This document shows, one piece after another, positions 57,688-60,578 of a stretch of 64,000 bases of DNA. Location: the NCBI GenBank assembly GCA_016764775.1, contig JAESRE010000015.1, positions 1 through 64,000 on the forward strand. The letters run 5' to 3'. The translations under genes and the position numbers were made by a program. Numbering within the stretch: the first letter of the stretch is position 1; each line of letters opens with the position of its first letter. This DNA comes from Alphaproteobacteria bacterium (GTDB lineage Bacteria; Pseudomonadota; Alphaproteobacteria; Micavibrionales; Micavibrionaceae). The notes beneath the pieces are model-generated. The model did no database searches and was not told the DNA's origin. It saw nothing but the letters and a program-made list of their open reading frames with translations.

Positions 57688-58323
57688 ATGACAGCCGTTA
57701 AAATCTGCGGGTTATCAGAACCCGAAACATTAAAGACAGCAATCGGGGCCGGCGCACGTTTCGTCGGCTTCGTGTTTTATGAACCATCACCCCGCTATGT
57801 CTCCTTTGACATCGCATGGAATCTGGCGCGCGCCGTGCCAACCTCCATCCGCTCGGTTGGCCTGTTTGTTGACCCTGACAATGCATTGCTTGAACGCGTT
57901 CTCACAGGTATCCAGCTGGATATGATCCAGCTGCACGGCAATGAAACACCCGGCCGCGTCGCGGAAATCAAAGACAAATACAAAATGCCCGTCATGAAAG
58001 CTATCCGCGTGCGTGAAGAAAGCGATCTGGATGGCATAGAAGGCTTTGAAGCAGCGGCTGATTGGTTGCTCTTCGATTCCAAACCCGAACAGGCGACCCT
58101 GCCGGGTGGCACAGGACACAAATTCGACTGGAGCTTGCTCGAAGGACGAAGCTTCTCCAAACCTTGGATGCTGGGCGGCGGCCTCACCCCTGAAAATGTC
58201 GCAGACGCACTGACCCAACTTTCCCCTGATGCCGTCGATGTATCCAGCGGCGTGGAAAGCGCACCGGGGCAAAAAGACAGCCGCAAGATCAAAGCCTTTA
58301 TCGAGACTGTAAAAAGCACCTGA
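57688..58323 (+). CDS. trpF: Phosphoribosylanthranilate isomerase
   Basis: A 211-residue barrel: VKICGLSEPETLKTAIGAGA (catalytic Cys), RFVGFVFYEPSPRYVSFDIA, SVGLFVDPDNALLERVL, QLHGNETPGRVAEIK, WLLFDSK (catalytic Asp) and WMLGGGLTPENVADAL with VDVSSGVESAPGQKDSRKI. It performs the third step from anthranilate to tryptophan. A nine-base perfect stem (CCTGAAAAA 58319-58327 / TTTTTCAGG 58336-58344) overlaps its stop codon and may act as a weak terminator or processing site before the riboswitch. Confidence 0.96.
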   Translation: MTAVKICGLSEPETLKTAIGAGARFVGFVFYEPSPRYVSFDIAWNLARAVPTSIRSVGLFVDPDNALLERVLTGIQLDMIQLHGNETPGRVAEIKDKYKMPVMKAIRVREESDLDGIEGFEAAADWLLFDSKPEQATLPGGTGHKFDWSLLEGRSFSKPWMLGGGLTPENVADALTQLSPDAVDVSSGVESAPGQKDSRKIKAFIETVKST

Positions 58324-58384
58324 AAAAAATTTCAATTTTTCAGGAACAGTTTTTCACCCCGCGCGTTTGTCCAAACAACACAAA

Positions 58385-58465
58385 AAACAGCAGGGGTGCT
58401 CCCTCATTACGATAGCTGAGATCATACCCTTAGTACTTGATAGGTAATTCTATGAAGAAGCGTTT
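58385..58465 (+). promoter_or_regulatory. TPP-class riboswitch aptamer (candidate) upstream of trpB
   Basis: Conserved TPP blocks occur in order: AGGGGTGCT (P2 5' side), GCTGAGA (pyrimidine-sensing loop), ATACCC (P2 3' side), ACTTGAT (P4 and J4/5), GGTAAT (L5) and TGAAG (P4 3' side). P1 is AAAC-A-GC (58385-58391) with GCGTTT (58460-58465), P4 pairs CTT with AAG, and P5 pairs ATAG with CTAT. The base equivalent to the conserved C before the J5/4 G is U. A terminator begins three bases later. No thiamine gene lies downstream in the window. Confidence 0.82.
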
Positions 58466-58468
58466 AGG

Positions 58469-58510
58469 CCCCATGCTGTCCTTATCTTAGGAAGCATGGG
58501 GTTTTGTTTT
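58469..58510 (+). terminator. Riboswitch-associated intrinsic terminator before trpB
   Basis: CCCCATGCT (58469-58477) pairs with AGCATGGGG (58493-58501); an inner TCC/GGA extends the stem past one bulged G. TTTTGTTTT follows to 58510. The aptamer segment AGCAGGGG (58389-58396) imitates the 3' arm and can pair with the 5' arm instead, giving an antiterminator. trpB starts 48 bases after the T run. Confidence 0.93.
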
Positions 58511-58545
58511 GGAATTTGAGTCTCGCATCTCGCGTAAAAACCAGC

Positions 58546-58551
58546 TATATA
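58546..58551 (+). promoter_or_regulatory. Possible leaderless promoter -10 before trpB
   Basis: TATATA within GCTATATAAG ends eight bases before the trpB ATG, the same GCTATA-N9-ATG spacing as lptC and rpoN. No Shine-Dalgarno is present and no good -35 box is seen. If active, it would express trpB independently of the riboswitch. Confidence 0.35.
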
Positions 58552-58558
58552 AGCGCCC

Positions 58559-59773
58559 ATGACAGCTAATTCGTATAAAAACCAGCCCGATGAGCGCGGC
58601 CATTTCGGTCCCTATGGCGGGCGTTATGTTGCCGAAACCCTGATGCCGCTGATTTTGGAGGTCGAAAAGGCCTATGAAGCGGCCAAGGACGACCCCAAAT
58701 TCTGGGAAGAGCTTGAAGAGCTGCAACGTGACTATGTCGGACGTCCCTCCCCGCTTTATTTCGCCAAAAGCGCAACTGAAAAGCTTGGCGGCGCCAAAAT
58801 CTATTTCAAACGTGATGAGCTAAACCATACGGGCGCACACAAGATTAACCACTGTCTCGGTCAGATTCTGGTCGCCAAACGCATGGGCAAAACCCGCATC
58901 ATTTGTGAAACGGGCGCAGGCCAGCACGGCGTTGCGACGGCCACTGTCTGCGCACTGTTCGACCTGCCCTGCACGGTCTTCATGGGCGCGACAGATATCG
59001 AACGCCAAGCCCCGAATGTGTTCCGAATGAAACTGCTCGGCGCAGAAGTCAAAGCAGTAGACAGTGGTTCAGGCACGCTGAAAGATGCGATGAACGAAGC
59101 TTTACGCGATTGGGTCACCAATGTGCATGACACATTCTACCTGATCGGCACGGTTGCGGGTCCACACCCGTTCCCACAGATGGTCCGCGACTTCCAGTCC
59201 ATTATCGGCACAGAACTAAAAGAGCAGATGATAGAACGCGAAGGACGCCTTCCTGACACCCTTGTCGCCTGTATCGGCGGCGGGTCAAACGCCATGGGGC
59301 TGTTTTACCCATTCCTTGATGATGCCGACGTAAAAATGGTTGGCGTCGAAGCGGGCGGTCACGGCGTAGATACCGATCAACACGCCGCCAGTTTGAACGG
59401 GGGTAAACCGGGCGTGCTTCACGGCATGCAAAGTTACTTCCTGCAAAACGAAGACGGACAAATTCAGGAAGCCCACTCAATTTCCGCAGGCCTTGATTAT
59501 CCGGGCATCGGACCGGAGCATGCGTGGCTCTTTGACCAGAAACGAGTCAACTACGTATCGGTTACGGATCAGGAAGCACTGGATGCCTTTCAGGAATGTA
59601 CCAAGCTGGAAGGGATTATCCCTGCTCTCGAACCCTCCCATGCCTTTGCGCATGTGATGAAGCTGGCCCCGACCCTGCCGAAAGATCATATCTTGGTCAT
59701 GAATATGTGTGGCCGTGGTGATAAAGACATTTTCACAGTTGCCGAAAAACTGGGCGTAGACATCGAGTCATGA
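58559..59773 (+). CDS. trpB: Tryptophan synthase beta chain
   Basis: A 404-residue Trp[43 protein letters not shown] lysine Lys95 in [53 protein letters not shown] and [18 protein letters not shown] with the closing CGRGDKD. It condenses indole and serine. It is preceded by the riboswitch/terminator and lacks a Shine-Dalgarno. Unusually, trpA does not follow directly; two small genes intervene, the first overlapping trpB by four bases. Confidence 0.97.
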
Positions 59774-60099
59774 TTTTAACGATATTGAAGAAGTTCAAGA
59801 TCACTGCGCTCTTTTCATTATATTTTCTTCTATGCTCGGTGATTTTTATGGCAGAAATCATCGTCCCTGACGCTTTCTCCATGCTGCTTCTCCCCTTTGC
59901 TCTGGTTATGCTCGTGTTTTCGATCCCGATGGTACAAGCCGGCTTTGTTATTCAAGAGTATAGCGGTGAAGGACCGTTTGCAGATCCCGCAATCAGCGAT
60001 CTGGGTGTCGCTTTGATTTGTCTGGGATGTCTGGCCTTTGTTTTTCTGGTCGAGCTCACAATTAATAAGGCGTTCGAACAACTTTGGAGCATAAAATGA
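59770..60099 (+). CDS. Small membrane protein between trpB and trpA
   Basis: A 109-residue protein starting in the trpB stop (ATGA). Three hydrophobic segments are readable ([40 protein letters not shown] and [20 protein letters not shown]). The loop [18 protein letters not shown] separates the last two. No family is recognised. Tight overlaps on both sides place it firmly in the trp operon. Confidence 0.72.
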
Positions 60100-60578
60100 G
60101 CCAATACGAAGTTAAAGCGGGACTGGCCGAGGTCGACAGCTTCAATGTCGTCGGCGTAAGTGTGGTCACGGACAATTCCAAAGGGACCGAAGACATCAAC
60201 GCCCTGTGGGAGCGTTTTTTCAAAGACAGCATCGGTCAAAAAGTCGCAAACAAGACCGATGATGTGATTTACGCAGTCTATAGCGACTATGAAGGCGATC
60301 ACGAGGCCCCATACCGACTCACAATCGGATATCGGGTCAAGGACGAGCGCGTAGAGGGTCAAATGACACCCGACCTGCATCACGTTGCGGTTCAGGGTGG
60401 TGAATACGCCCTGCTCAGTGCCGCAGGCGATCAACCCAAAGCGCTGATTGAAACATGGGAAGCAATTTGGTCCAGTGATCTCGACCGTGAATTTAAAACC
60501 GATTTCGAAGTATACGGCCCGCGCTTTTTCGAAGATGGTTTACACGAAGTCCTTGTTCACATAGGAATACAGGGCTAA
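60096..60578 (+). CDS. GyrI-like small-molecule-binding protein
   Basis: The ATG at 60096 overlaps the previous stop and has GGAG eight bases upstream, giving 160 residues. YEVKAGLAEVDSFNVVGVSV at the start, INALWERFFKD, IYAVYSDYEGDHEAPYRLTI and VQGGEYALLSAAGDQPKALI with FEVYGPRFF near the end fit the GyrI-like / effector-binding (Cass2-type) domain seen alone or fused to AraC regulators. Standalone forms bind small molecules or hydrolyse cyclopropyl compounds. No DNA-binding part is present. A role in the trp operon is not evident. Confidence 0.78.
   Translation: MSQYEVKAGLAEVDSFNVVGVSVVTDNSKGTEDINALWERFFKDSIGQKVANKTDDVIYAVYSDYEGDHEAPYRLTIGYRVKDERVEGQMTPDLHHVAVQGGEYALLSAAGDQPKALIETWEAIWSSDLDREFKTDFEVYGPRFFEDGLHEVLVHIGIQG

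Follow-up and report, generated by a model that had tools for sequence, protein, structure and literature searches.

The TPP-class aptamer that lies in front of trpB in the stretch of DNA analyzed here (64,000 nucleotides, hereafter the window) is best read as part of a stand-alone, self-contained small RNA gene, which has a stress-type promoter and a terminator of its own and merely precedes trpB instead of serving as its leader; judging from the sequence features described below, we give this reading a probability of about 0.6. TPP riboswitches are regarded as elements that switch thiamine genes in cis. The predicted unit consists of an EcfG-type promoter, a diverged TPP-class aptamer, and an intrinsic terminator (Table 1), and it would yield an RNA of ∼135 nucleotides. 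The entire unit lies on a 214-bp piece of DNA that was inserted between trpF and trpB, in this lineage alone, and it can be regarded as a putative, diverged representative of the stand-alone TPP-aptamer RNAs, a group that occurs at thi-free loci in three or more families of the order.

Table 1 Features of the trpF-trpB region in the window and settings of the stand-alone elements found in other genomes of the order
Feature	Position	Strand	Remarks
trpF (PRA isomerase)	57688..58323	+	Final codons changed by the insertion
Left copy of 11-bp imperfect direct repeat beside the insertion	58309..58319		GTAAAAAGCAC; single in the closest relative, where both window flanks align
Weak terminator-like hairpin across the new trpF stop codon	58319..58344	+	CCTGAAAAA/TTTTTCAGG
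214-bp insertion at the trpF end	58320..58533	+	This genome only; breakpoints from comparison with G056
EcfG-type (general stress sigma) promoter-like site	58343..58367	+	GGAAC-N16-CGTT; predicted RNA start at ∼58373-58380
TPP-class aptamer, diverged	58382..58462	+	Weak P1, short P4-P5, C77-G78 missing; Rfam alignment extends to 58476
Aptamer 5' strand, possible antiterminator	58387..58397	+	Can pair with terminator 5' arm, 58468-58479, with one bulge
Intrinsic terminator	58468..58510	+	GCCCCATGCT...AGCATGGGG, then TTTTGTTTT
Right repeat copy, ancestral trpF 3' end	58534..58544		GTAAAAACCAG
TATATAA, -10-like, likely leaderless trpB promoter	58546..58552	+	13 nt before trpB ATG; TATAA conserved
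trpB	58559..59773	+	
G040 element			After ribonucleotide reductase gene, facing convergent gst
G045 element			Ribonucleotide reductase locus upstream as in G040, with one gene between; faces convergent pit-like gene
G050 element			After flgH and a terminator, facing dksA-like gene
G085 element			Upstream gene divergent
G125 element (other family)			After DNA ligase gene
G108 and G128 elements (other families)			Both after CBS-domain gene; then SOD gene and tRNA-Arg

A cmscan search of positions 58320 to 58580 matched the TPP model RF00059 at 58382 to 58476 on the forward strand (38.5 bits, E value of 2.2e-6), and against the whole 2.38-Mb genome the same aptamer was the third of three TPP matches, with an E value of 4.8e-6. 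The aptamer blocks quoted in the original prediction are present as described and are backed by a significant covariance-model match, though one under the Rfam gathering score of 54.3 bits, which is why a default Rfam scan of the window remains silent at this position. The span first proposed (58385 to 58558) missed the promoter-like element upstream and took in the old 3' end of trpF. The window aptamer has retained P2, P3, the UGAGA T-loop, and G60, while its P1 is weak (-2.6 kcal/mol) and bulged, its P4-P5 arm is shortened, and the J5/4 dinucleotide C77-G78 (Escherichia coli thiM numbering) is absent, leaving the set of conserved ligand-contact letters (UGAGA T-loop, G60, C77, G78) incomplete. 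In the E. coli thiM aptamer, C77-G78 touches the pyrophosphate of TPP (PMC3764141; PMC7824784). Because this dinucleotide is gone, the window copy may have lost its TPP response, and we file the element as TPP-derived rather than as a proven TPP sensor. Among the 36 family aptamers checked, 34 have kept C77-G78; the two exceptions are the window copy and the element of genome G040, neither of which stands before a thi gene. Loss of C77-G78 beside a retained pyrimidine-sensing T-loop would also be expected if the aptamer had given up pyrophosphate for another ligand, perhaps one linked to tryptophan; we consider such a change of ligand very improbable, as the altered aptamer occurs in one species only and so offers no sign of selection at the changed positions, and as the G040 element, likewise devoid of C77-G78, is not near trp genes.

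Consistent with what was first noted, the aptamer is followed by a strong terminator, whose hairpin (58469 to 58501) has a predicted energy of -23.8 kcal/mol and runs into TTTTGTTTT. The two higher-scoring TPP matches of the same genome, one before a gene resembling 5-carboxymethyl-2-hydroxymuconate isomerase (CHMI-like) and thiC and the other before thiO, extend to the start codon without an intervening terminator. The same arrangement was found throughout the order, where thi-linked TPP aptamers, unlike the window element, extend to near the start codon and no such terminator was seen. The pairing of the aptamer 5' strand with the terminator arm is only suggestive of an antiterminator, since shuffled strands pair equally well in 2 to 3.5% of cases (18 of 1,000 in a separate count); for four other elements, the corresponding counts were 50 to 509 of 1,000.

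Upstream of the aptamer, GGAAC (58343) and CGTT (58364) are separated by 16 nucleotides, and the site ends 14 nucleotides short of where the Rfam match begins. The EcfG motif of Sphingomonas melonis is GGAAC-N17-20-GTT (PMC6599016), and the site in the window conforms to the [GT]GAAC-N17/18-GTT pattern upstream of the stand-alone group described below. When [GT]GAAC-N16-18-GTT was sought within 130 nucleotides upstream, it was detected for seven of nine stand-alone elements (the seven full-length ones, the truncated one of G042, and the window copy), for none of 46 thi-linked aptamers, and in 1.0% of random windows; the motif had been noticed by eye before counting, which weakens these numbers, while neither the thi-linked control set nor the published consensus depends on that choice. 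In the two elements that do not match, G050 and G128, GGAAC is present but a GTT at the proper spacing is not; the EcfG-like site of G045 is located 111 nucleotides upstream of the element. Such enrichment is consistent with dependence of these RNAs on EcfG, the general stress sigma factor.

Comparison of the trpF-trpB gap across related genomes revealed that the two closest relatives, G056 (TrpB 95% identical) and G055 (93%), lack the element, with trpF running on to end 12 to 15 nucleotides before trpB. Alignment to G056 placed the breakpoints at 58319 and 58534, with 214 bp added and 11 bp of the trpF end doubled imperfectly, and the aptamer element is wholly contained in this species-specific insertion, which was probably recent in this lineage. 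No further copy of the insert was found in its own genome, in the relatives searched, or among 385 genomes of the class (its own included). A mobile element with inverted ends or extra copies was considered, and neither feature was found for the insert. Descent by duplication from the thiC or thiO aptamer of this genome was likewise set aside, as there is no similarity and the architecture differs. For a foreign source, plasmids and phages gave no match to the insert, and exact-pattern scans of GTDB contigs and viral contigs found none.

The genes downstream are those originally listed, namely, trpB, a membrane protein gene, a GyrI-like gene, trpA, and accD, with no thi gene among them; hence, control of genes for thiamine synthesis, salvage, or transport was not found at this locus. 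The element could nonetheless be a cis riboswitch, in which TPP governs whether transcription arriving from the element or from trpF continues into these five genes and thereby couples thiamine to tryptophan metabolism. It lies on the same strand, with fewer than 100 nucleotides between the aptamer and the ATG, and it has the strong terminator and the possible antiterminator that a switch of this kind would use. We nevertheless judge cis control to be rather improbable, considering that the element is absent from the closest relatives, that C77-G78 is missing, that what lies downstream of the sister elements in other genomes varies (convergent gst, pit, or dksA-like genes, a tRNA, or SOD), and that trpB has a conserved leaderless-type TATAA after the terminator. 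Across 56 relatives, TATAA starting at -14 to -11 of the trpB ATG occurred in 18, versus 1 to 2 of 56 in shifted windows, and it persists in relatives where trpF is not upstream. The promoter near 58546 that had been suspected of bypassing the switch is supported by this conservation at 11 to 14 nucleotides before the ATG. Leaderless mRNAs are frequent in Caulobacter (PMC4117421), and trpB is probably transcribed from its own leaderless start past the terminator. Since the TATATAA sits downstream of the terminator, a switch could affect only read-through. The thiamine-tryptophan coupling initially proposed finds no support, as the insertion is species specific, trpF is joined to trpB without the element in relatives, and the other thi-free aptamers occupy unrelated loci; the Salmonella contact between the two pathways mentioned at the outset concerns TrpD and not TrpB (PMC3485032).

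Two neighbors of trpB deserve mention in their own right. The 109-amino-acid membrane protein gene (59770 to 60099) has an ATGA overlap with each of its neighbors, trpB before it and the GyrI-like gene after it, and it too is a species-specific insertion, because trpB of the closest relative overlaps the GyrI-like gene directly. A thiamine link for this protein was considered and dropped, as it matched no protein family and no clear relative was found in the rest of the family. The GyrI-like gene (Cass2/GyrI Pfam; 60099 to 60578) keeps its place directly after trpB in most of the other genomes from the genus.

TPP matches were surveyed in 142 genomes of one order, with weak and unassigned matches checked. 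In total, 47 TPP aptamers precede thiC, a CHMI-like gene with thiC, or thiO. A further seven full-length TPP aptamers (G040, G045, G050, G085, G108, G125, and G128) have no thi gene and are immediately followed by a terminator, and the window aptamer shares these properties, with an immediate intrinsic terminator and no thi gene. An eighth thi-free aptamer, in G042, lies after a ribonucleotide reductase gene and is represented only by its start, as the contig end cuts it. In each of the seven genomes, the stand-alone element was the only TPP match. Rfam scores of the full-length elements ranged from about 47.5 to 66 bits, the highest being that of G125, and C77-G78 was kept in six of the seven (not in G040), with scores of 53 to 66 bits. 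Where the elements have any tie to a neighbor, it is to the upstream gene rather than to a downstream one; gene names other than trp, thi, and tRNA in these loci were read from translations without profile searches. The G085 element would need its own promoter because the upstream gene is divergent. Some stand-alone elements could instead be 3'-untranslated-region elements because they closely follow a gene on the same strand without a terminator, as in G040, where the distance is 45 nucleotides.

These elements also bear on whether the window copy is simply debris, i.e., a piece of thi regulatory DNA of foreign origin that retains aptamer and terminator, has no gene left, and decays while merely insulating trpF from trpB. 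Confinement to one genome, the lowest-but-one Rfam score, the lost C77-G78, and the weak P1 would all fit such decay. On the other hand, the aptamer sits precisely between promoter and terminator, six of the seven full-length look-alikes retain the ligand-contact dinucleotide without any thi gene and all seven retain aptamer and terminator, and the element 3' of the ribonucleotide reductase gene recurs in two genera. A plain relic of a lost thi gene, as had been suggested at the outset, is thus a poor fit, and since the other stand-alone elements turned up we regard it as unlikely.

Structural evidence came from the P1 helices. Among eight elements (the window copy and the seven full-length ones), the P1 strands covary while differing in sequence, and they pair best with their own partners, with summed energies of -39.6 versus -20.7 kcal/mol when permuted (fraction, 0.0016). 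Moreover, a covariance model built from the seven elements, with the window copy left out, gave the window 53 bits (E value of 7.9e-14), above 44 of the 47 thi-linked aptamers, a ranking to be read with the caveat that a model made from stand-alone elements rewards any terminator; Rfam's own model ranks the window aptamer second lowest. A chance likeness to the TPP aptamer, for which the score below the gathering cutoff might speak, is scarcely credible given this match to a model built without the window and the genome-wide E value reported above. The window and G050 elements have in common P3 letters that are not conserved in Rfam (TCCCTCATT...GATA), as well as TTTCAGGAAC upstream at the promoter. 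An anti-Shine-Dalgarno CUCCCUC loop was rejected as a general feature, being restricted to these two. A degenerate pattern for the short P5 arm was also discarded, its sole match being a canonical Peptoniphilus TPP aptamer with the CG kept.

Under the stand-alone small RNA reading, the general stress sigma factor would transcribe the RNA, and during transcription the 5' strand of the aptamer would pair either inside the aptamer or with the terminator arm. Binding of TPP would tip the balance toward the aptamer and termination, so that the short RNA is made, while read-through would be possible at low TPP; this short RNA may work in trans. With C77-G78 gone, the window copy may terminate regardless of TPP. 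More broadly, and only tentatively, the order may possess a family of stress-sigma-driven, TPP-sensing small RNAs that move between loci and, as trans-acting or antisense read-through regulators, link coenzyme B1 to the general stress response.

The window element has the core, T-loop, P2/P3/P4-P5 plan, terminator, and possible antiterminator of TPP riboswitches (THI element, RF00059) of the terminator type, from which it differs in lacking a thi gene and C77-G78 and in having its own stress-type promoter. In layout, it is comparable to the EcfG-controlled small RNA GsrN of Caulobacter, an alphaproteobacterial short structured RNA with an EcfG-type promoter and an intrinsic terminator, for which, unlike the window element, no metabolite aptamer is described (PMC5869019). 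In SreA, Rli55, and AspocR of Listeria, a metabolite aptamer sets the length or fate of a regulatory RNA, as proposed here, but the ligands are S-adenosylmethionine (SAM) or B12, in contrast to the TPP-type window element, and SreA retains a cis target operon (PMC8079631). We found no TPP example of a stand-alone or trans-acting riboswitch RNA in the open-licence literature searched. If our reading is correct, a recurrent promoter-aptamer-terminator group without a gene to switch would put a very old aptamer to a new use, and the stand-alone TPP-aptamer RNAs would connect the general stress response with coenzyme status. Caution is warranted in annotation, as a gene adjoining an aptamer need not be under its control.

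Several further arrangements were observed in the order. Three genomes from two genera have TPP aptamers 3' of the same ribonucleotide reductase gene (L151, 3596-3722, reverse strand; L181, 3763-3889, reverse strand; L156, 2354-2406), and because two of the three run toward convergent genes, their read-through would be antisense to gst or pit. Aptamers directly following a CBS-domain gene were present in two different families (L184, 1469-1602, reverse strand; L185, 1503-1633, forward strand). In addition, many genomes of the family have the small CHMI-like gene (L001, 1163-1504, reverse strand) placed after the TPP riboswitch and ahead of thiC, a position that suggests a role in thiamine metabolism.
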